This document shows positions 10,544-20,907 of a DNA stretch of 32,412 nucleotides, piece by piece. A program made the position numbers and the translations under genes. The DNA is taken from positions 1 to 32,412 of the forward strand of contig LBVN01000013.1 in assembly GCA_000993115.1 (NCBI GenBank), read 5' to 3'. Below the pieces are notes generated by a model. It did not search any database and was not told the origin of the DNA. It saw only the letters and a list, made by a program, of their open reading frames with translations. Origin of the DNA: Candidatus Woesebacteria bacterium GW2011_GWB1_38_8b. Lineage in GTDB: Bacteria; Patescibacteriota; Microgenomatia; UBA8517. How positions within the stretch are numbered: position 1 is the first letter of the stretch; every line of letters starts with the position of its first letter.

Positions 10544-10885
10544 ATGGACAGAGATGGTCACAATAGATTTATACAAAAAATGCCTATATATTTTGGGTTT
10601 TTATTATGTTTATTATCTATATTATTTCTGGTGACGAGAGTAAAAACTGTTAAGGCATACGGATGCTGGGAGTCAACTTGTTTTCCCCCAATGGAAGACT
10701 GTGTGGGTGGTTGTTATGGAGGTAGCTGTTGCGACGATCTTGATGACCCTTGTGACAATCACCCTTTTTCACCGTCTTGTAATGATTCTGGTGGTGGAGG
10801 CGGGAGGATAGTACTCATGGAAACGAAAATAATGTATATGATGATGATACAACCCCAGTGCCAGATCCAGAAGTACGGGGATTAG
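10544..10885 (+). CDS. N-terminal piece of a secreted Cys-rich protein, probably frameshifted from the next frame
   Basis: 113 aa as read. A signal peptide or anchor (FGFLLCLLSILFLVTRVKTVKA) precedes a Cys-rich segment (CWESTCFPP, CVGGCYGGSCCDDLDDPCD) and a Gly run. After the GGGGG run the frame turns implausible (MYMMMIQPQCQ), while the other frame reads a sensible acidic linker, NENNVYDDDTTPVPDPE, straight into the protein at 10858. One extra base at about 10803-10807 would join them into a single exported protein of about 730 residues. The shift may be a sequencing error in the G-rich run, a real mutation or a recoding event. Confidence 0.6.
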   Translation: MDRDGHNRFIQKMPIYFGFLLCLLSILFLVTRVKTVKAYGCWESTCFPPMEDCVGGCYGGSCCDDLDDPCDNHPFSPSCNDSGGGGGRIVLMETKIMYMMMIQPQCQIQKYGD

Positions 10886-12783
10886 GACGGCCATGCGGAT
10901 CTTTTCCTATTAATCCGATATATATATTCCGAGGCGATGTGATTAATCCTATGCCTGAAAGCAATTTATACCCAAGTGAATGTCTGCGTTTCCGAACACT
11001 TACAGGATCCGAATATTATAATATTGTAGTTCCGATCACAACATTTATTAGAACTTATCGTACAAGGGTCTGGTGGTCTAGTGGATCGGTCCATGATATT
11101 AATAGTCCACACTTTTTAAACTTAACTGGTATTTCTGAAAGTGGCGGAATGCGAACTTATACTTTCAGCATCAATGGAACTTGGGACGCGATTCGTGCAC
11201 AGTATGATGATCCAGCAGGTGGTGAGGATTATAAATTACAGATATTGTTATCTAACTCTCCTGCAACAAATAATGAGCCTATTTGTGCATTTAACAGCGA
11301 GACTTTAACGCCATCTGATGACCCGCTTCAAATCGGTAGTAGTTACCAGTTGTCTACGGTGGTTAATGTAACTCATACATCGACAAATTCTGCCATAGTC
11401 ACATCATTTGCAAAAGTTGGTTCTAATCTAGTGATTCAAGGTGTTAACTTTTCTTCAAATCAGGAGCCTCCAGGCCCGAGAATTTGGGTATATATACGGT
11501 ATAAAACGATTACCGCGGGTCCTTACTATGAGTATCAAGGTTTTCATACAATTGCAGTAGGTTCTCCACAGTCTTTAACGATCCCGGAATCCAGCTTAAT
11601 GGCAGGTTTTGATCCTTATTACGATTTTTATTACATTAGAGTAGGAAGGCCATCCGACTCAATTGTGAGTGTAAATTATTCCGCAAGAAATCCAGATGGT
11701 ACTCCATCGTCTGCAATATCTTTAGCAAGCGCTTCTGTGACGACTGCTTCTTCGGAAGGAATAACAGATGCAACATATCAAAATACTCTTACCCCGGTTT
11801 CATTTTCACCATTGCCGGTTAATATTCATACGGAAGTGGTTATGAGGGGTTCGAGCGGAGACACGATTAGGTGTTCTCGAGTATTACCCGTGGGTATAGA
11901 CAACCTGAGTCCCTGGTATCAAGTAAGTGGAGGGAATATTGTATCTGCACAGGGTAATATTTCATCAGATATTCCAACTGATCCACCTCCAGGCCTTGAA
12001 TTTATATCCAGTGATAATATTGGAATGCCAATATTTAGCGGGGTATTGGCTCCTCCAAGCTCGACTTCTAACATCGGAGATCCAGGTTGGAACGCAGACA
12101 CGCTCTACAATGGACACTTAACAGCAACAGGAACCAGCTATGATTACACTTACTTCACACAAAAGTTCTATCCTTCTATCGATAATTTCCCTCAAACTTC
12201 TCTACCTCCGGTGGGTTATGCTACTGGACGTGATTTTTTTAATGCCGTACCAGGAGAGCTAAATGGTATTTATCATGTTTACAAACAGGAAGGTAGTCCA
12301 TTGACTATTACATCTGGACTCGATCTGAGAGCAAACGGTCGGCAGGATAGAATTATAGTTTTTGTAGGAGGTGACCTTTTCATTGGCGGCAAGATTCAGA
12401 TTGACAACGGTGTCGATTTTATAATGTTTATTGTATCGGGTAACATTTCTGTCAGGCCTTTGGTAGGAGACCCGGCTCCTTATGCTAACTCAGGTACCGT
12501 TGATGCTGAAGATATCGAAGGTATATTTATCACAAACGGTCAGTTTATCACTAATGACGGTCAACTAAATCCACCGGATCAGATCTATCAACTATATGTA
12601 AGAGGCATTGTTGCCAGTTTCTATAATGGCGGTGGAACAAATGGAGTAGAGTTCCAAAGAGATTTAGGAGGAGGGAACGCGCTATATCCTGCTGAAATAT
12701 TTGAATTCGCACCCGATCTTCTTCTTAACTTCCCATCATTTTTCTCAGAAAAAACAATAACCTGGAAAGAAGTGAGTCCTTAG
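10858..12783 (+). CDS. Large exported protein sharing its C-terminal domain with the next gene
   Basis: 641 aa from the GTG at 10858, which is probably not a true start: the signal peptide lies in the preceding fragment, one frame away. The N-terminal two thirds are beta-rich and Ser/Thr/Pro-rich. The C-terminal 290 residues, from PWYQVSGGNIVSAQGNISSD to the end, closely match the next gene. Shared blocks are PGWNADT, IIVFVGGDLFIGGKIQ, EGIFITNGQF, LYVRGIVASF, FQRDLGG and the terminal FEFAPDLLLNFPSFFSEKT with WKEVSP. Regular short beta stretches suggest a parallel beta-helix or adhesin-like surface domain. No enzymatic motif was seen. Confidence 0.7.
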   Translation: MPDPEVRGLGRPCGSFPINPIYIFRGDVINPMPESNLYPSECLRFRTLTGSEYYNIVVPITTFIRTYRTRVWWSSGSVHDINSPHFLNLTGISESGGMRTYTFSINGTWDAIRAQYDDPAGGEDYKLQILLSNSPATNNEPICAFNSETLTPSDDPLQIGSSYQLSTVVNVTHTSTNSAIVTSFAKVGSNLVIQGVNFSSNQEPPGPRIWVYIRYKTITAGPYYEYQGFHTIAVGSPQSLTIPESSLMAGFDPYYDFYYIRVGRPSDSIVSVNYSARNPDGTPSSAISLASASVTTASSEGITDATYQNTLTPVSFSPLPVNIHTEVVMRGSSGDTIRCSRVLPVGIDNLSPWYQVSGGNIVSAQGNISSDIPTDPPPGLEFISSDNIGMPIFSGVLAPPSSTSNIGDPGWNADTLYNGHLTATGTSYDYTYFTQKFYPSIDNFPQTSLPPVGYATGRDFFNAVPGELNGIYHVYKQEGSPLTITSGLDLRANGRQDRIIVFVGGDLFIGGKIQIDNGVDFIMFIVSGNISVRPLVGDPAPYANSGTVDAEDIEGIFITNGQFITNDGQLNPPDQIYQLYVRGIVASFYNGGGTNGVEFQRDLGGGNALYPAEIFEFAPDLLLNFPSFFSEKTITWKEVSP

Positions 12784-12790
12784 AAGCTGT

Positions 12791-12888
12791 TTCAAAACTT
12801 CACGGTTTTGATGCTTTGCAAGCTTATATTGCCCAGTTCAAACCATTGCTCGTATTTTTGGTAAATACTCGCTGGTTTTGAAATGGGC
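12791..12888. repeat. Structured intergenic element with nested inverted repeats
   Basis: It lies between the two paralogues. The first hairpin is TCAAAAC-TTCACG-GTTTTGA (12792-12811). The second, larger one pairs GCCCAGTTCAAACCA (12831-12845) with TGGTTTTGAAATGGGC (12873-12888), with one mismatch and one bulge, and has an inner stem GTATTT-TTGGT-AAATAC (12852-12868). Because TTCAAAAC also matches the outermost arm, alternative pairings exist. It could be a miniature mobile repeat or a regulatory RNA between the genes. Confidence 0.6.
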
Positions 12889-12939
12889 TATAATCAATTC
12901 GCTAGTTGCAACAACCTAAAATATGATAATCTAAAATAT

Positions 12940-14967
12940 ATGAGTGGTTTTAATGAAAAAAATAAATACATTTCCATATCACTTGTTGCAATTTTTATTC
13001 TGTTTTCTCTAACTGCGGCAACTATACATAGGTTGCCAAGAAAAAGTTCTGCACCTTCCGCTCTTCAGGCACAAAGTGAATCTTCCGAAGTTGAACAGTT
13101 TCCGATGCGTCCACCTTCTGAATGCGACGCCGATATTGAGCTGGTTATTGATATATCGGGAAGTATGTCAAAGCGGGAAGTTGATGGAAGGCAAAAGTTA
13201 GCTTGGGTAAAGGATGCAGCACTTGATTTTTTGGCCGAGATGGAATTCGTCGATGACTTGCCTGATAATGATATTCGCGTTGGTTTGTCAACTTTTGGAA
13301 TGACTTATTCCGGAGCTTACAACAGTGGAATTATAAGACAACCAGTAACTTCTACATGGTATTTGCTTCGTAATTCAATTAATTCATTGACAACGCAATC
13401 GTCAAATGGATTTGGAACTTGTGTTGAATGCGGGCTTAGAGCCGGACGCGCCGATTTGTTTTCAAATATCATTGACTCAACTCGGCCAAAATTTGTCATT
13501 ATGATATCGGATGGTTACGGAAACAGAACGCTTACATCGGGAAATACAAATGTCGGTGTAGTAGCCGCACGGTCTGCTGCAATTTCAGAGGCGTTTTTAG
13601 GGAAAAGAAGCGCCGTGATTTATTTTGTAATTGGCTACGGTGAGGGTGCAACCTTTGACTCTCTTACTTTAACAGGAGTAGCGAACGATCCGGACAGCAG
13701 TTATTATGCATACAAACCCAATGTTTCCGATTGGGTGGATCACTTTCGAGACCTTGCAGTTAAAGTTTGCGACAGACCTGTAACGAATTCATGCTCGGTT
13801 GCGAGTACTTTGTATAGCACGCCGGAAAATCCGGTAAGTCTTACAACAGGAGTTTCTATTACTGTGGGTACAAACTTTACAAATTTTACACCTCTGGGAA
13901 AATCTGCAGAAGTGAGGTATGGTTTGACGGATGCAAGTGTCGCCGGTATTACACCAGGGACTACATTTACTGTCCCAAATCCTCCCGGATCAACTGCGTT
14001 TAGCTACTATTTTAGTAGAGTAAATGTCACTTCGTTATCAACTGCAATTCCAGGATCAACAACTGAATTGAAATCTGATGTCTACATTGATGGGGTTTTA
14101 CAGTGTACAACCTCAACGTTTTTTAAAACCGGTTCAGTGGATCCGTGGTGGCAGGTTGGTGGGGGAGATGTTGTTGCGGCAAGAGGAAACGTGACGTCTG
14201 ATGTGCCGACAATTCCCGCTCCGGGGAAGGTATTAATGGCTAAAGACTATTTTGGAATACCGATTTTTGAAGGAAGTATTAGTCCAAATAATCGAAACAA
14301 TTTAGGTGTTCCCGGGTGGAATGTAGATACAAGGTTCGTGTCTTATCTGACCCCTTCCGGCGCAAATTATAATTACGATTTTTTTGCAAGGAAATATATT
14401 TCACCTGCCAATATCAATCAATCACTTATTCCATCAACCTCTTATTTTGACTCTAATCTGGGAACGGGAAAGGAAGGATACCAAGTTTATTTCCGCAATA
14501 CGGACTTGGATTTGGGGACGCTGAATTTTACAGGAGGACAAAATAAAAAAATCATTATTTTTGTAAATGGAAATGTAGATTTAACCGGAAAGATTATTTT
14601 GGATGATGGCCGTGACTTTTTCATGCTGATTGCAAAGGGCAGTATTGTAGTTGATTCGAGCGTGGGTGACACAACTGCTGTAAAACCAGGTACTGCTGGG
14701 TCAGCTGATCTGGAAGGGATCTTTGTAACGGATAATGAGTTTAATACTAGTGGTGGTGCAAGTACAAACAAGCAGTTAGTAGTGCGTGGAACTGTAGTGG
14801 GATGGGGAAATAATGGAGGTATAAACGGAATTAATTTTCAAAGAGATATTGGAACATCCAATATCAATTATGCGGCAGAAATATTTGAATTTGCTCCTGA
14901 TTTAATTCTTAATTTTCCTGGCTTTTTTGGTGAGAAGACTATAATCTGGAAAGAAGTAAGCCCATAG
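12940..14967 (+). CDS. VWA-domain surface protein with shared C-terminal domain
   Basis: 675 aa from ATG 12940; an in-frame ATG at 12883 would add 19 polar residues ahead of the signal anchor. A hydrophobic helix at residues about 11-27 is followed by a linker and a von Willebrand factor A domain from about 64 to 255. The MIDAS motif is DISGSMS (71-77), with GTCVECG and MISDGYG supplying the other metal contacts. The C-terminal 285 residues (PWWQVGGGDVVAARGNVTSD to WKEVSP) are paralogous to the preceding gene. VWA domains bind protein or surface ligands through a divalent metal. The pair looks like a duplicated surface module with different N-terminal parts. Confidence 0.85.
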   Translation: MSGFNEKNKYISISLVAIFILFSLTAATIHRLPRKSSAPSALQAQSESSEVEQFPMRPPSECDADIELVIDISGSMSKREVDGRQKLAWVKDAALDFLAEMEFVDDLPDNDIRVGLSTFGMTYSGAYNSGIIRQPVTSTWYLLRNSINSLTTQSSNGFGTCVECGLRAGRADLFSNIIDSTRPKFVIMISDGYGNRTLTSGNTNVGVVAARSAAISEAFLGKRSAVIYFVIGYGEGATFDSLTLTGVANDPDSSYYAYKPNVSDWVDHFRDLAVKVCDRPVTNSCSVASTLYSTPENPVSLTTGVSITVGTNFTNFTPLGKSAEVRYGLTDASVAGITPGTTFTVPNPPGSTAFSYYFSRVNVTSLSTAIPGSTTELKSDVYIDGVLQCTTSTFFKTGSVDPWWQVGGGDVVAARGNVTSDVPTIPAPGKVLMAKDYFGIPIFEGSISPNNRNNLGVPGWNVDTRFVSYLTPSGANYNYDFFARKYISPANINQSLIPSTSYFDSNLGTGKEGYQVYFRNTDLDLGTLNFTGGQNKKIIIFVNGNVDLTGKIILDDGRDFFMLIAKGSIVVDSSVGDTTAVKPGTAGSADLEGIFVTDNEFNTSGGASTNKQLVVRGTVVGWGNNGGINGINFQRDIGTSNINYAAEIFEFAPDLILNFPGFFGEKTIIWKEVSP

Positions 14968-14995: not shown

Positions 14996-15004
14996 TGATA
15001 TAAT
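14996..15004 (+). promoter_or_regulatory. Extended -10 promoter of the ATP-grasp cluster
   Basis: TGATATAAT, a TG-n extended -10 with a perfect TATAAT at 14999-15004. No clear -35. It ends 11 nt before ATG 15016, so any leader is only a few bases. Of the promoters noticed between 14,967 and 20,580 it is the best placed to drive the whole cluster. Confidence 0.55.
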
Positions 15005-15015
15005 ACACTCCATCC

Positions 15016-15909
15016 ATGAAACTATTCCGTACATTGTTACTTTTGGGTATTTTGGTGTTTACACTTTACTTTTTTAGTGCAAAAAACGCATTTGCAGCCC
15101 GTATAACGGCTTCACCCACACCAACACCAACTTTTACGATAACTCCGACCCCGACTGAGGTTCCGGGAAATACTATTACGAAAGAAACAGAAGAGGTGGT
15201 TGAGCCACTTAAGCGTGCAATAAATGCTCAAGAATTGGGCAAACTCGGAATTGGTAACTTTTTAAAACATTCGGTAAAACAATCCGTTAATGCGGGAGTG
15301 CCGCCGAATACTATCGTTTTACTGCTGCTACTTCCCGGTATTGCTACACTCATTGCCGCGGCAAGACATTTAATCGGACTTCGGGGATTTGGTATTTTTT
15401 TACCTGCAGCTTTATCGATAGTATTTTTAGCGATCGGACCGGTTTTGGGAATTTCAGTTTTCATTGTAATTACGGCAGTTTCAACATTGGTCAGGTTATT
15501 TTTACGAAAGGTAAATATTAAACTGCAATACCTGCCGCGTATGGCAATGCTCATGTTTTTTATGGCAATCACAGTTTTAGGAATTTTATTTTTAACACCT
15601 TTGATTAAATCAAACATCTTCACAAACATTTCCATTTTTCCTGTTTTGTTTCTTATTCTTTTTGTTGAAGACTTTATCAGGGTTCAGTTGGGGAAGTCAT
15701 TCAAGACGGCAGCAACTTTGACTTTCGAAACAATGGTTTTATCTCTGGCGTCTTATTCGTTTTTAATAATGTGGCCGTTGCAGCGATTTGTACTTCTGAA
15801 TCCTGAAATATGGCTTCTTGGAATACTCGTTATAGACATTTTGGTTGGTAAATATTCCGGTCTTAGGTTCTTGGAGTTATACAGGTTCAGAAAATTATTT
15901 AATAAGTAA
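15016..15909 (+). CDS. 7TM protein related to the 'inactive transglutaminase fused to 7TM' family, lacking the transglutaminase part
   Basis: 297 aa. A signal peptide (residues 1 to about 26, ending NAFAA) precedes a Thr/Pro linker (SPTPTPTFTITPTPTEVPG) and a short amphipathic part, then about seven hydrophobic segments from residue 93 to the C-terminus. GIATLIAAARHLIGLRGFGIFLPA and FVEDFIRVQLGKS match the 7TM portion of proteins usually encoded beside a RimK-like ligase and a RimB-like protease. The extracytoplasmic transglutaminase-like domain normally found in front is reduced to the linker. Position directly ahead of an ATP-grasp/retropepsin gene supports the family assignment. It may anchor or transport the cluster's product. 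Confidence 0.75.
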   Translation: MKLFRTLLLLGILVFTLYFFSAKNAFAARITASPTPTPTFTITPTPTEVPGNTITKETEEVVEPLKRAINAQELGKLGIGNFLKHSVKQSVNAGVPPNTIVLLLLLPGIATLIAAARHLIGLRGFGIFLPAALSIVFLAIGPVLGISVFIVITAVSTLVRLFLRKVNIKLQYLPRMAMLMFFMAITVLGILFLTPLIKSNIFTNISIFPVLFLILFVEDFIRVQLGKSFKTAATLTFETMVLSLASYSFLIMWPLQRFVLLNPEIWLLGILVIDILVGKYSGLRFLELYRFRKLFNK

Positions 15910-15946
15910 ATTAGCGCACCTTAATTATCTAAATATATCTAATAAT

Positions 15947-17296
15947 ATGAAAAAATCGGCAATATTGGGATTAAATAGTAGAACTCAACAGTATGCGTAC
16001 AAATACAATACAAAAAAGGGAAAAAACACTGCTAACAGTAAAGCCTTGTCGTATAAAATATTAACCAGCTCGGGAATTCCGACCCCTTCGCTTTACGCAA
16101 AGTTTCGTAACCAGGAAAAGTTAAATGAATTTAACTGGTCGACACTTCCTTCATCTTTTGCCGTTAAACCCAGCCGCGGACTTGGAGGCGAGGGAATTAT
16201 TGTTGTAAAGCGCCAGGCAAAGAACGAAGAGGCATGGATTACAACCTCAAGAAAAAAAGTTACAGTTCCTGACTTGAAGCTTCATATAAACGATATTCTG
16301 GAAGGCGCCTACTCAATGGGTAACTTTCCGGATGTCGCAATTATTCAAGAGTATATCGGCCGTCATAAAACGTTTAAGCGGTATGCGTATAGGGGTACAC
16401 CCGATATAAGAATTATAGTTTTTAATAAAGTTCCGGTTATGGCAATGCTTCGTCTTCCGACAAAAGAGTCGGGAGGACGGGCAAATTTGCATCAAGGGGC
16501 TATCGCTGTGGGGGTTGACATATCAACAGGAATTACTACTAAGGCCTACTGGCACGGAAATTTTGTTAAATATAAACCGTCCTATTCTGTCGAGCGGTTT
16601 GGGCCTTTTGGGATTTTTAGAAAAGCCAAAAAAGACGTTACAAAAAGAAAACTTAACGGTATAAAAATACCCAATTGGACAACTGTTTTAACAACAGCAG
16701 TTAGAGCACAAGATGCATCGGGATTGGGCTACTGCGGAGTGGACATTGTTCTGCATCCTGAAAAAGGTGCAATGGTCTTGGAATTAAATGCACAGCCGGG
16801 TCTGCAAATTCAAATGGCGAATTTAGCCGGACTTAAAAAAAGATTGGAAAGAGTCGAAGAGCTAGAAGTTCGGGATGCAGATCATGGAGTTAGAATTGCA
16901 AAAGCTTTGTTTGCTGAGCGATTTGCTGATAAAGTTAAAGCGGAAGAAGGAATTAAAATATTATCTCAGATCGAAAAAGTTGCCATATACAGCTTAGACG
17001 GTAAAAAGAAAATTAGTACTGATGCAAGAATTGACACAGGGGCGCAGCGATCATCAATTGACAGAAGTCTTGCAAAAGAACTGGGGCTTTTGGATGAGAA
17101 AAATATTCTTTGGAAGGACAGATATCAATACCGTTCAGCCAGCGGGCTTGAAACACGACCGGTCGTGGGAATTAAGTTTATACTAAAAGGCAAAATTGTA
17201 AAAAGTTCAGTTTCCGTTGCAAACAGAAGTAAAATGTCAAGTAAATTACTGATAGGTAGAAATGATATGAGCGGGTTTTTGGTAAATCCGAGTTAA
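15947..17296 (+). CDS. RimK-like ATP-grasp ligase fused to a RimB-like retropepsin domain
   Basis: 449 aa from ATG 15947; an upstream in-frame start would overlap the 7TM gene. Residues about 25-300 are an ATP-grasp ligase of the alpha-L-glutamate-ligase-like type: FAVKPSRGLGGEGIIVV (nucleotide loop), IQEYI, DIRIIVFNKVPVMAMLRLP, then GYCGVDIVL and MVLELNAQPGLQIQMAN with the metal-binding Glu and Asn. Residues about 345-449 form a RimB-type aspartic-protease fold with DTGA (Asp363) and a C-terminal LLIGRNDM. Elsewhere these two activities are separate neighbouring genes. The fusion suggests that one protein both adds and removes amino-acid residues on the same substrate. The substrate is unknown. 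Confidence 0.87.
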   Translation: MKKSAILGLNSRTQQYAYKYNTKKGKNTANSKALSYKILTSSGIPTPSLYAKFRNQEKLNEFNWSTLPSSFAVKPSRGLGGEGIIVVKRQAKNEEAWITTSRKKVTVPDLKLHINDILEGAYSMGNFPDVAIIQEYIGRHKTFKRYAYRGTPDIRIIVFNKVPVMAMLRLPTKESGGRANLHQGAIAVGVDISTGITTKAYWHGNFVKYKPSYSVERFGPFGIFRKAKKDVTKRKLNGIKIPNWTTVLTTAVRAQDASGLGYCGVDIVLHPEKGAMVLELNAQPGLQIQMANLAGLKKRLERVEELEVRDADHGVRIAKALFAERFADKVKAEEGIKILSQIEKVAIYSLDGKKKISTDARIDTGAQRSSIDRSLAKELGLLDEKNILWKDRYQYRSASGLETRPVVGIKFILKGKIVKSSVSVANRSKMSSKLLIGRNDMSGFLVNPS

Positions 17297-17340
17297 ATCA
17301 TAAGTAGTAGATTTTAGGTAATAAGTTTATAAAAAAGAAT

Positions 17341-18249
17341 ATGGGCAGCAAAATATTAATAATCGTTGGAGGGAATATTTCAAAGTTGGATAAATTCAAA
17401 GACGCAACGTTAAGGCTTGGTTTAGATGTTACTTTGGCATCGCTTAATGATATTAATTATGAATACAAAAATACATCTGAATTCTCTTTGAAGATAGAAA
17501 ATAAGGATATATCTGACTTTAAATTAATTTATATCAGAATGATTGGGAAAAGAATTGAGGACGCATCACTTTTAGTTGATTACGCTCATAAAAACAGGAT
17601 AAAGGTAGTAGATCATTTGTACGAATCGGAACTTCTGCTTCCTTCAAGTATTTCAAAAGCAGTTGAGACAAGAAAACTCATTGAAGGAGGAGTTGTCATT
17701 CCTAAATCGTTTTACAGCAACTTAACTCGAGTAATTAAATATGGAGAAAGAAATTTAGATTATCCTTTTATTATTAAAAGTACATCAGGCAGGAAAGCGC
17801 GTGAAGTATGGCTAATCGAAAATGAAGCTGATTTAAAAGAAAAAAAAGTTATTTTAGAAGAGTTGGAAAAAAACGGAATGCGCTTTTTTGCGCAAGCCTA
17901 CATAAAAGCAAGCCAGCGGGTAAGAGTATTAACCCTTGGAGGGGTTGCAATTGCTGCAATAACAAGGCCGACTAAATGGAGAAAAAAAATAGAAAGCAAA
18001 CTCACTAAAGATAATCCCGAAGGTATAAGAGGTAAGTTAGATCCGATTCCATATGTATACAAAGATATTTCGGAAAAGGCATCTAAAGCCGTATCTTTGG
18101 ATATTTGCGGTGTTGATATCTTGCATGAAGACGATACCGATAATGTTTATGTTATCGAAGCAAATGCAGCCCCGGCATGGAAACTTATAGAAAAAGACTG
18201 GAAATTTAGTGTAGAGGAAAAAATATTGGAGTGGCTAAATAAGTTATAG
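17341..18249 (+). CDS. RimK-family ATP-grasp ligase
   Basis: 302 aa. The N-terminal pre-ATP-grasp Rossmann-like domain (ILIIVGGNISKLDKF) ends near residue 110. The ATP-grasp core follows: PFIIKSTSGRKAREVWLI, FFAQAYIKASQRVRVLTLGG, AITRPTKWRKK, LDICGVDIL and YVIEANAAPAWKLIE, with the Glu and Asn expected to hold magnesium. Such enzymes join a carboxylate to an amine through an acyl phosphate. It lies 44 nt after the fusion gene on the same strand, separated by a TAGGTAATAAG-type AT-rich spacer. The acceptor cannot be told from the sequence. Confidence 0.85.
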   Translation: MGSKILIIVGGNISKLDKFKDATLRLGLDVTLASLNDINYEYKNTSEFSLKIENKDISDFKLIYIRMIGKRIEDASLLVDYAHKNRIKVVDHLYESELLLPSSISKAVETRKLIEGGVVIPKSFYSNLTRVIKYGERNLDYPFIIKSTSGRKAREVWLIENEADLKEKKVILEELEKNGMRFFAQAYIKASQRVRVLTLGGVAIAAITRPTKWRKKIESKLTKDNPEGIRGKLDPIPYVYKDISEKASKAVSLDICGVDILHEDDTDNVYVIEANAAPAWKLIEKDWKFSVEEKILEWLNKL

Positions 18250-18289
18250 GTAATAAGTATTAGGTAGTAAGTTAAGAGTCAGAAAAAAA

Positions 18290-19036
18290 ATGAAAAGCAC
18301 TAATGACATTAAAAAGTTTTATCCCCCTAAGCGAAACACGGGGAGCGTAAGCTCGCGTGTGGAAGCGAAGATTGTTCCGCTTCGGAGGGATTTTGCTCCC
18401 GACGAAGCGCGGGGAAAAGATACCACGACCGTAAGGTTGCGGGAGCTTTATCAGGATAAGTTCAAAAAATACGGTGACGATCCGAAATCGCTTCTTTGGA
18501 AACGAAAAGGTGCGGCACACCAGCGTTTCCGTCAATTTTGGGCTGAGATTGATTTTAACAATAAAAAAGTCTTGGATATCGGTTGCGGATTCGGGGAGTT
18601 TGGAATTTTTTTGGTAAAGCGATATAAAAATGTTAACTATACGGGAATTGATATTGTTCCGGAGTTTATTAATGTCGGAAAAAAGAAATATCCAAATTTG
18701 AATCTTGCGGTTGCAGATTACCTGACCGATAAAATTAAAGCTAAGTTTGATGTAGTAATTGCTTCCGGTGTTTTGAATTCAAATGTTTCAAATAATATGA
18801 AGTTTCGTGAGAAAGCCATTGCCAAAATGTTTTCGTTAACTTCTGATGTTTTAGCATTTAATATGCTTGGCGGCCATCCTCAACCGAAATTTACAAATGA
18901 TTCAAATGTTTGGTATGCCGACTCTTTAGAAATTCTGAATTACTGTTTATCTCTGACACGCCGTGTTATACTTCGCGCGAACTATAACCCGCACGATTTT
19001 ACAATTTTTATGTATAAGGTTAAAAAAAGTGTATAA
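18290..19036 (+). CDS. SAM-dependent class I methyltransferase
   Basis: 248 aa. The Rossmann methyltransferase core starts near residue 92: motif I VLDIGCGFGEFG (94-105), the acidic adenosine-binding residue in YTGIDIVPEF, AVADYLTD, and motif IV-like FDVVIASGVLN. The C-terminal part (NDSNVWYADSLEILNYCLSL) follows the usual small-molecule methyltransferase plan. Residues about 16-40 are encoded by an unusual GC-richer palindromic element (18336-18409) and look inserted. Its place between ATP-grasp genes suggests that it methylates an intermediate or product of the cluster. Confidence 0.85.
   Translation: MKSTNDIKKFYPPKRNTGSVSSRVEAKIVPLRRDFAPDEARGKDTTTVRLRELYQDKFKKYGDDPKSLLWKRKGAAHQRFRQFWAEIDFNNKKVLDIGCGFGEFGIFLVKRYKNVNYTGIDIVPEFINVGKKKYPNLNLAVADYLTDKIKAKFDVVIASGVLNSNVSNNMKFREKAIAKMFSLTSDVLAFNMLGGHPQPKFTNDSNVWYADSLEILNYCLSLTRRVILRANYNPHDFTIFMYKVKKSV
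18336..18409 (+). repeat. Palindromic element inside the methyltransferase coding region
   Basis: Three hairpin-forming blocks. ACACG/CGTGT (18336-18340, 18356-18360) encloses GAGC-GTAA-GCTC, a GNRA-type loop. GAAGCG (18362-18367) can pair with CGCTTC (18378-18383). CGCTTCG (18378-18384) can instead pair with CGAAGCG (18403-18409), enclosing GGAG/CTCC. The second and third are mutually exclusive. The element is GC-richer than its surroundings, keeps the reading frame and codes for a low-information peptide. Confidence 0.6.
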
Positions 19037-19059
19037 TCCGCGTAGTAATATAAAAATAT

Positions 19060-19698
19060 ATGTCGGAAAGAGATAAAGATAATAGAGATGTTCCGCAAGA
19101 AGCTCAGGACTTTAATGAGTGGTTTTTGGGCTTAAGCGGCGAAAAAGTTCTTGGAAGGGAAATCAAAATGACTCCAGAACTTGCGAGAACTGCATTAGAA
19201 TTTTACGGTGCAGAATTTAATCCAGAGATTGAGGGGTATCCGGCACTTAGTGAATATTCCAATCTTGAACGAAGACCGGGAATGGATGCTGTATGGGGAA
19301 GAAACAGGGTATCAGCATTTAATACATGGACTAATTGGTGGGCAGAACATTATGAGGCAGCTGGAGGAACACTACCCAAACTTGATAAAAGTGGAAAGAA
19401 TACTTCAGGTATGAGACAAATATTTGGCGAGACAACTTCCTTTGCGGCAGGTTTAGTAACAGAGGATGAATTTGTCGAAAGAACAAGAATAAGAATTAAT
19501 AACGGTATTGCATATGCTGAAGGTAGACTGGGCGATAGAGAAGAAATAGAGACTTCTCAATCTAAAAAAGCTAGACTCGAAGCTGCGGCGGCTAGGGGAG
19601 AAAAAACAGAACCACGGATGTTCAGACCTTCGTCTGTGCCACCAGGGTTTATCAAAGAATGGCTTAACTGGTTGCCAACTTCAGCTGAGGAGGAATAA
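19060..19698 (+). CDS. Soluble protein of unknown family in the ATP-grasp cluster
   Basis: 212 aa, no signal peptide or membrane helix, acidic overall, predicted mostly helical. Trp/Phe-rich patches (DFNEWFLGLSGEKVLG, NTWTNWWAEHYEAAGG) resemble a ligand- or partner-binding surface; the C-terminus has an Ala/Glu/Arg-rich helix and ends EWLNWLPTSAEEE. It ends immediately before the ATG of the third ATP-grasp gene and carries that gene's Shine-Dalgarno site (AGGAGG) in its last codons, so the two should be translationally coupled. It could be an accessory subunit or the modified substrate. No family recognised. Confidence 0.7.
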   Translation: MSERDKDNRDVPQEAQDFNEWFLGLSGEKVLGREIKMTPELARTALEFYGAEFNPEIEGYPALSEYSNLERRPGMDAVWGRNRVSAFNTWTNWWAEHYEAAGGTLPKLDKSGKNTSGMRQIFGETTSFAAGLVTEDEFVERTRIRINNGIAYAEGRLGDREEIETSQSKKARLEAAAARGEKTEPRMFRPSSVPPGFIKEWLNWLPTSAEEE

Positions 19699-20580
19699 AT
19701 GGTGGCTTTAGATTTAATTGTTTTTACCGAAAATCCGGCGGCTTATGCACCGAAAAGGATTTTGGAGGAGTGCAAAAAGCACAGAATTTCCGCACTGGCG
19801 ATTTCTTATAAATCAATTGATTTTTCGGTTGATGTTTCGGACATTGATGTTAAGGTAGATGGCGTAAATCTTCCGATGTCAAAAGTTATTCTATTTCGTG
19901 AACTTGCTCCGAAAGCATTTGCTTATTATCATCGTAATTTTTTGATAGAATTATATGAAGCTGCTGGTGCAAAAGTTATAAATGCCGATTCATATTTGAT
20001 GTGGCCGTATTTGGATAAACTTACCCAGCACTTTGAAATGCAAAAAGCAGGTATCCCATTTGTAAAGACTTTAAACTTTGGTCACAGGAGCCGGTTACTT
20101 ACTGAAATGTCTGGTAAATATCCTTTTATCGAAAAATATCATATAAGCAGTCGCGGACGCGAAGTCTTCAAGGCCGAAAACTCCGATGATGTTGAAAAAA
20201 TAAATAAAGCCGGGTATAAAACCAGAACGCTGCTTGTGCAGGAATTACAAACTGCAGGAGAGGATTTAAGAATAATTGTAATCGGTGGAAAAATAATCGG
20301 TGCGATGAAGCGAATTGCAAGCAGTGGATCTCATTTAACAAATTTTTCCCAGGGAGGCAAAGTTGAAAAGTATGATATTGAAAATGATAAGAAAGCCTGC
20401 GAAATTGCATTGAAATGTGCAAAACATTTTAAACTGGATTATGTCGGAGTGGATTTGATTCGGGGGAATGATGGAAACTGGAAAGTGCTGGAAGTAAATC
20501 GTGGAGCGCAATTTAAAGGTTTTGAACTATCAACTAAATTCAATGTTCCTGCTGAAATTATTAAGGTATTTTTAGGGTAG
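19699..20580 (+). CDS. RimK-family ATP-grasp ligase
   Basis: 293 aa. An N-terminal domain of about 95 residues (LDLIVFTENPAAYAPKRIL) precedes the ATP-grasp core: YPFIEKYHISSRGREVFKA, LLVQELQTAGEDLRIIVIGG, KIIGAMKRIASSGSHLTNFS, YVGVDLIRG and WKVLEVNRGAQFKGFE, with metal-binding Glu and Asn. GEDLRIIVIGGKIIGAMKR closely follows RimK/LysX-type ligases. The gene starts at the base after the preceding stop codon, with AGGAGG just upstream. It is the third ATP-grasp in the cluster and quite different in sequence from the other two, so it probably uses a different substrate. Confidence 0.87.
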   Translation: MVALDLIVFTENPAAYAPKRILEECKKHRISALAISYKSIDFSVDVSDIDVKVDGVNLPMSKVILFRELAPKAFAYYHRNFLIELYEAAGAKVINADSYLMWPYLDKLTQHFEMQKAGIPFVKTLNFGHRSRLLTEMSGKYPFIEKYHISSRGREVFKAENSDDVEKINKAGYKTRTLLVQELQTAGEDLRIIVIGGKIIGAMKRIASSGSHLTNFSQGGKVEKYDIENDKKACEIALKCAKHFKLDYVGVDLIRGNDGNWKVLEVNRGAQFKGFELSTKFNVPAEIIKVFLG

Positions 20581-20631: not shown

Positions 20632-20907
20632 ATGGAGCCAAATTTACCAAATCCCAATTCGGACTCATTTGAGAATCACCCTCAAAATATTAACTACGTT
20701 TATAACCAAATCGAGCATGGATTAGAGACAAAACTTCCTCCCCAAAAAATAAAAACCGAAAAGTATTTATTGGTTGCGGTTTTCTTCTTTTTTGCAGTAG
20801 GTTTGATTGTATCTTTGATACTGTTGGTCAGCGGAATTAATCGGGAACAAAAAGCAAATTCGGTTTCAGCAGTTGAGCTTACCATAACTCCTTCGATCGG
20901 ATACTAA
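20632..20907 (+). CDS. Small single-pass membrane protein
   Basis: 91 aa: a polar, Pro/Asn-rich N-terminal half of about 40 residues, one transmembrane helix (residues about 46-68, YLLVAVFFFFAVGLIVSLILLV) and a short tail of about 20 residues. No motif known to me. It has its own possible promoter and ends at the bidirectional terminator it shares with rplL, so it is probably a separate unit from the ATP-grasp cluster. Confidence 0.6.
   Translation: MEPNLPNPNSDSFENHPQNINYVYNQIEHGLETKLPPQKIKTEKYLLVAVFFFFAVGLIVSLILLVSGINREQKANSVSAVELTITPSIGY

Follow-up and report, generated by a model that had tools for sequence, protein, structure and literature searches.

An Rlo-like locus with a ligase-retropepsin fusion and a changing set of RimK-like ligases in Patescibacteria

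We compare here a six-gene locus of Candidatus Woesebacteria bacterium GW2011_GWB1_38_8b, at positions 15016-20580 of a 32,412-nucleotide (nt) contig (LBVN01000013.1; this whole stretch is the window below), with the described systems that it most resembles. The rloABC operon of Pseudomonas aeruginosa encodes a retropepsin (RloA), a seven-transmembrane (7TM) protein with an inactive transglutaminase (RloB) and an ATP-grasp ligase (RloC), and it plays a part in osmotic, envelope and biofilm phenotypes (PMC12239564, mBio 2025). RloA and RimB both cleave polyglutamate (PMC12239564, PMC11957791), and RloA residues K46, R114 and R137 bind it, R114 and R137 being also required for RloA function in vivo (PMC12239564). 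The RimK-RimB system has a hybrid form, RimBK, with the protease N-terminal and the ligase a RimK (PMC11957791). In tubulin polyglutamylation, ATP-grasp-like TTLL ligases add acidic chains, and CCP and TMCP/MATCAP peptidases, the latter acting on polyglutamate, shorten them (PMC10499314). Finally, graspetide loci of candidate-phyla bacteria hold ATP-grasp genes, sometimes with methyltransferases (PMC8939145).

Judged by its encoded proteins, the window locus is plainly related to rloABC and divergent from it. All three domain families stand in one operon, the retropepsin keeps its DTG motif and polyglutamate-binding positions, and the ATP-grasp is cytoplasmic. We nonetheless regard the locus as Rlo-like and not as a strict rloABC member, because two features tested for were both missing: its RloB lacks the transglutaminase-like domain, and its RloA, instead of being separate and secreted as in Pseudomonas, is fused to the C-terminus of RloC without a signal peptide. 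The window further adds RimK-like ligases, a methyltransferase and an optional protein (U212), and other patescibacterial lineages swap the protease for MATCAP. The reading that we favor, at somewhat better than even confidence, is of a patescibacterial Rlo-like system for reversible (poly)glutamyl-type tagging at the membrane, in which the cassette of additional ligases and the methyltransferase vary the tag.

A 7TM protein and a ligase-retropepsin fusion

Six collinear open reading frames (ORFs) on the forward strand occupy 15016-20580, in agreement with the preliminary description of this DNA; with two accompanying features they are as follows.

14996-15004, + strand: extended -10 motif TGA-TATAAT, read in the sequence; predicted start ~4 nt 5' of the first ATG
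15016-15909, + strand: RloB-like 7TM protein, 297 amino acids (aa); PF14402, NF052267, hydropathy
15947-17296, + strand: RloC-RloA fusion, 449 aa; PF14397, TIGR02291, PF05618, NF052264
17341-18249, + strand: LigB, RimK-like ATP-grasp ligase, 302 aa, ligase class 3; PF08443, TIGR00768
18317-18437, + strand: dispersed, strongly structured repeat inserted between the LigB and methyltransferase genes; ORF residues ~8-57
18438-19036 (ORF annotated from 18290), + strand: class I S-adenosylmethionine-dependent methyltransferase, ~198 aa; Methyltransf_31/25/12
19060-19698, + strand: U212, acidic all-alpha protein, 212 aa, optional; AlphaFold2 (AF2) model, without family match
19699-20580, + strand: LigC, RimK-like ATP-grasp ligase, 293 aa, ligase class 5; PF08443, TIGR00768, NF040720

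The components first listed (three ligases, a retropepsin, a 7TM protein, a methyltransferase and an unknown protein) were all found by profiles, except that one ligase and the retropepsin are a single protein: gene 15947-17296 encodes an ATPgrasp_ST ligase (residues ~1-320) with a C-terminal retropepsin (~335-449). The ligase part matched PF14397 (ATPgrasp_ST) at E 7.5e-63, with 212.8 bits vs. a Pfam cutoff of 31.4, and TIGR02291 at 254.5 bits, under the NCBIfam cutoff of 314.2; the retropepsin part matched Zn_protease PF05618 (E 2.7e-7) and RloA3 NF052264 (E 5.8e-8). The AF2 model of the fusion (mean predicted local distance difference test, pLDDT, 87) shows a beta-rich domain behind an ATP-grasp, and in structure comparison its ATP-grasp came closest to ArgX, cyanophycin synthetase and RimK.

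By hydropathy and profiles the 7TM protein has a signal peptide-like start, a short Pro/Thr-rich linker and a 7TM_transglut domain. Its residues 101-294 matched PF14402 over the Pfam cutoff (68.6 bits, E 8e-19), and the NCBIfam RloB profile NF052267 covered only its C-terminal half. This membrane part was the sole match in Pfam and NCBIfam, the transglutaminase-like domain being absent from the 297 residues. The neighborhood of RimK-like ligase, retropepsin and 'transglutaminase-7TM' protein that had been pointed out at the outset is a known one, but here the 7TM member comes without its transglutaminase part. RloB proteins of the phylum fall into three length classes, ~520 aa, ~300 aa (that of the window) and ~220 aa, with the ~520-aa forms found in other families. 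One RloB relative (L086:7882-9459; L numbers denote loci of relatives) has a polycystic kidney disease (PKD) domain in its extracytoplasmic part, and no transglutaminase match was reported for it.

The core is widely kept. In the same family, PF14402 was found in 46 of 50 genomes, 43 of 47 encode the RloC-RloA fusion, and the 7TM protein and RloC are directly adjacent or fused in 39 of 40 neighborhoods; they form one 706-aa ORF in L045, and a small ORF lies between them in L054. Across Patescibacteria the 7TM protein occurs in 87 of 287 genomes, RloC is the next gene in all 39 sampled loci in which that protein was detected, and RloC there nearly always carries a retropepsin-like or MATCAP C-terminal extension. 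The locus counts, in the family and in the phylum, rest on a simple ORF caller. Among named relatives the fusion protein was seen at four loci, all from Ca. Woesebacteria or Ca. Levybacteria. The gene cluster is real and not a chance arrangement, as confirmed by the retention of the 7TM-ligase pair throughout the phylum and by RimK-like ligases that, in the family genomes, are almost confined to this locus; co-occurrence in relatives, the point on which the preliminary description had made its cluster depend, does hold.

That description knew of no account of such a combination. Its core does already have a name and genetics, as rloABC of P. aeruginosa (PMC12239564), and the patescibacterial distribution of RloB appears unreported, since the 2025 rloABC study placed 96% of RloB hits in Proteobacteria (PMC12239564). 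A membrane-linked enzyme system that is near-universal in very small genomes points to an important function, apparently undescribed in the literature examined, in the Patescibacteria, which rank among the largest groups of uncultured bacteria. Parts of the core neighborhood in other bacteria may already have been noted in the ATP-grasp neighborhood survey of Iyer et al. 2009.

The retropepsin domain and MATCAP

The window retropepsin has D363-T-G-A together with R361, R404 and R427. Its catalytic D363 is invariant in 37 family fusion proteins, and the DTG motif is kept in all 39 full-length fusions of the family. A phmmer search of the PDB with the single RloC-RloA query gave no match, but a profile of the 37 sequences aligned to the deposited RloA crystal structures 9G59 (E 1.4e-7) and 9G58 (E 8.7e-7). 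By this profile alignment, made without a superposed dimer, RloA K46, R114 and R137 correspond to K/R361 (37/37), R404 (36/37) and R427 (37/37) of the family fusions, the window having R, R and R; the arginines R404 and R427 are 23 residues apart, as are R114 and R137 of RloA.

No signal peptide was found at the N-terminus of the 449-aa fusion protein (MKKSAILGLNSR). A protease fused to its ligase and without a signal peptide resembles the cytosolic RimBK, which raises the alternative of a cytosolic RimK/RimBK-like system that polyglutamylates S6 or another ribosomal protein. The window S6 does end in ...KGE, and the operon usually ends convergently against rplL-rplJ, its neighbors in most family loci. 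We nonetheless think this alternative unlikely, and S6 an unlikely target: the S6 C-termini are not conserved in relatives that keep the system, being mostly K, S or other, with E in 3 of 17 that were readable. Moreover, the constant partner is a 7TM protein, RloC belongs to ATPgrasp_ST/TIGR02291 and not to RimK, and the order, ATPgrasp_ST first and retropepsin last, is the reverse of that in RimBK.

In other families of the phylum, the locus holds a metallocarboxypeptidase of the MATCAP type (PF08014), either as a separate gene or fused to the C-terminal side of RloC. RloB and MATCAP occur together in 51 genomes (RloB in 87 and MATCAP in 63 of the 287, P = 1e-21), and MATCAP was present in 17 of 17 loci that lack the DTG motif vs. 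5 of 23 that keep it (P = 3e-7). We consider the case for a retropepsin/MATCAP exchange strong but not proven, because the number of independent DTG losses is too small for significance in a tree-corrected test. In the window genome the retropepsin is intact and no MATCAP match was found. Such a swap of two unrelated peptidases in a single polypeptide, each associated elsewhere with glutamate chains, is our strongest evidence on the ligase product. It points independently to a glutamate-chain substrate, and it bears also on the substrate question in Pseudomonas, where rlo determines tolerance to antibiotics and osmotic stress. The window system, with a retropepsin and no MATCAP or tubulin, is like tubulin polyglutamylation in outline, and MATCAP is common to many patescibacterial loci.

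Fusions of RloC to MATCAP by way of a retropepsin-like region without DTG were observed at L085:8311-10695, L087, L091, L093, L096, L097, L099, L101, L108 and L112. Separately, members of the window's own family encode large proteins close to the operon (L056:7354-9405, L060:7289-9112 and L061) that bear an HEVEGHVLR-type motif and that profile comparison relates to MATCAP (hhalign probability 97, E 5e-11).

The exchange also bears on whether the ligases instead build a free small molecule (by cofactor glutamylation, or as a peptide such as one resembling glutathione) that the 7TM protein would export or sense. LigB and LigC do score to MptN, CofF and GshB profiles, albeit under every curated cutoff. 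Such a pathway would leave the retropepsin/MATCAP exchange unexplained and would make a protease with conserved polyglutamate-binding positions incidental, and no cofactor genes were noticed beside the locus; we judge it improbable.

Ligase cassettes, methyltransferase and U212

Behind the core lie one to three extra RimK-like ligases per locus. LigB matched PF08443 (E 9.9e-16) and TIGR00768 (E 2.6e-22); LigC matched PF08443 (E 2.2e-29), TIGR00768 (E 1.9e-38) and the MptN model NF040720 (E 1.4e-33), and its nearest solved structure is RimK 5ZCT. The extension of the trio by two more ATP-grasps and a methyltransferase, as first proposed, is borne out by these profile matches and by co-occurrence in relatives. 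Ligase classes recur in set order: 2-1; 0-6(-5); or 3 plus methyltransferase, with or without 5 or 0. Class 3 (LigB) orthologues occur in 13 loci, 12 of which have the methyltransferase. Three loci (L043, L044, L047) have, in place of the cassette, a ~780-aa protein whose N-terminal half matches ATP-grasp. The unassigned C-terminal half of this protein (L043:7794-10127, L044, L047) looks acetyltransferase-like by eye, and a GNAT-like ORF follows in L043 and L044.

Mapped onto a tree of RloC from 37 members of the family, cassette type required 13 changes where the minimum possible is 4, and L055, the sister core of the window (support 99/95), carries 2-1 vs. 3-methyltransferase-U-5 in the window. 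On these two grounds the core is stable, whereas the set of ligases has changed frequently, via exchange or differential loss.

Variable ligase sets are also a property of biosynthetic clusters, and candidate-phyla graspetide loci are known in which ATP-grasps accompany methyltransferases (PMC8939145). The locus could accordingly be imagined as a graspetide-type cluster, in which the ATP-grasps cross-link a precursor peptide that is matured by the protease and exported by the 7TM protein, with U212 serving as that precursor or as a protein that binds its leader. We find this improbable as well. The ligases score best against RimK/MptN/LysX (1e-22 to 1e-38) and far under the MvdC/MvdD cutoffs (TIGR04184, E 4.8e-5; TIGR04185, E 0.03-0.09); no short precursor recurs between the ligases and rplL among ORFs of at least 50 aa; U212 is predicted to be a folded protein; and the core is near-universal and syntenic, not sporadic. 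Graspetide loci have short precursor peptides and other partners, and in the section of their description examined (PMC8939145) none comes with a 7TM, ATPgrasp_ST or retropepsin protein.

The methyltransferase matched Methyltransf_31/25/12 in Pfam. Its annotated start at 18290 is probably wrong and the true start near 18438, because ORF residues ~8-57 match a dispersed repeat, found at scattered, unrelated sites of related genomes and often interrupted there by in-frame stops, and the orthologues (199-239 aa) align only from residue ~40-53. The first ~45 codons would then be a spurious extension from the repeat, and a candidate start, TTG at 18438, can be read from the sequence. The annotated gaps along the six genes are 37, 44, 40, 23 and 0 nt, as previously described (0 to 44 nt); with the likely start at 18438, the LigB-methyltransferase gap is probably ~190 nt and holds the repeat, instead of being 40 nt. 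The repeat (18317-18437) folds strongly (z -2.5). LigB and methyltransferase genes often overlap in relatives (e.g., L051, L063). Translated copies of the repeat turn up in the genomes of many relatives, some of which have several. A PADLOC match of the methyltransferase to the mad2 defense gene (4.8e-13) was set aside as generic methyltransferase similarity, the other five genes matching no defense model.

U212 had no match in Pfam, NCBIfam, PDB sequences, PHROGs or PADLOC. Its AF2 model is all-alpha and fairly confident (pLDDT 78.8; predicted template modeling score 0.79), and a fold search against the PDB gave no match (best E 1.3). Close orthologues were found at 4 of 40 relatives' loci (L051, L064, L066, L075), and a second group of proteins in the same slot (L039, L046, L070, L071) shows a remote relationship to it (hhalign probability 90, E 1.6e-6). 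A search with all nine sequences returned relatives in 11 of 47 genomes; eight of these relatives, the seeds of the profile, lie at the locus, and the rest elsewhere. U212 is therefore an accessory and not a core part, nor a core partner of the ligase at 19699: the protein is optional and has remote relatives off the locus. Two family members (L158, L161; G012:C4) flank rplJ-rplL on a contig other than that with the Rlo-like locus, so that the family may belong as much with these ribosomal-protein genes as with the ligases.

The U212 stop codon lies immediately 5' of the LigC ATG (0 nt) and the protein has an acidic C-terminus, ending in EEE. These features, and the match of the RloC model to ArgX bound to LysW, suggest a LysW-like carrier on whose C-terminal glutamates LigC and LigB build a metabolite that is then methylated and released by the protease. 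We give this very little credence: the C-termini differ among orthologues, most loci with ligases and methyltransferase have no U212, and searches of Pfam and NCBIfam show no LysW similarity. The lack of C-terminal conservation likewise led us to disfavor U212 as a C-terminal-Glu substrate.

Proposed mechanism and neighboring genes

In the Rlo-like tagging system that we favor, RloC would be the writer, starting or extending an acidic amino-acid chain on a membrane-associated acceptor that the 7TM protein would hold at, present, or move through, the membrane. RloC, LigB and LigC would attach amino acids, glutamate or others, forming one amide bond per step, and the retropepsin domain, as a dimer, would be the eraser, cutting long acidic chains as RimB does on RimK products. 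The methyltransferase might modify or cap the tag made by LigB, and U212 could be an optional adaptor or acceptor. Because the core is stable while the ligase cassettes change between lineages, the tag chemistry would differ between them. Pseudomonas cells are harmed when they lose the rlo proteases, and deletion of rloB or rloC rescues them (PMC12239564), which by analogy fits a balance of writer and eraser; the same analogy makes a role in the envelope likely, in osmotic or cell-wall stress or host contact. The pathway of the preliminary description, which builds, trims and methylates a membrane-linked product, agrees with what is conserved here, namely ligases that form amide bonds, a retropepsin that trims and a protein in the membrane; the membrane link of the product is something that we infer.

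Several points weigh against this reading. Product, acceptor and amino acid are what we infer from the genes, and RimK-like ATP-grasps have diverse substrates. LigB and LigC score under every curated NCBIfam cutoff. The trimming compartment differs, the window protease having no signal peptide and Pseudomonas RloA being secreted. The independent DTG losses number at least three, which is the shortfall in the tree-corrected test noted above, and the variation of cassettes could reflect differential loss and not exchange.

A broader proposal, possible but doubtful, is that Patescibacteria hold a widespread bacterial counterpart of the tubulin code, in which the 7TM/RloC core would write acidic tags, cassette ligases with or without methyltransferase would set their chemistry, retropepsin and MATCAP, two unrelated erasers, would interchange in the same polypeptide, and the tags would decorate an envelope molecule for host attachment.

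Upstream of the operon, the extended -10 motif that had been described as leading it is visible at 14996-15004, ~12 nt 5' of the first ATG, which would make the transcript nearly leaderless. A sigma-70 scan listed no promoter at these positions and showed no excess over shuffles, leaving the motif without statistical support. In an Rfam search of the window a tRNA was the sole match.

The two large genes directly 5' of the operon (10858-12783 and 12883-14967) share a conserved C-terminal stretch, the direct repeat D1, and the latter gene encodes a von Willebrand factor type A (VWA) domain. Their homologues (cluster c19) adjoin or nearly adjoin the 7TM gene on its 5' side in L055, L061, L073 and L075. 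It is possible that these genes encode surface proteins linked to the system. On the other side, between the operon and rplL, lies a gene for a 91-aa protein with a single transmembrane segment (20632-20907), with a counterpart of 95 aa in the same place in L055.

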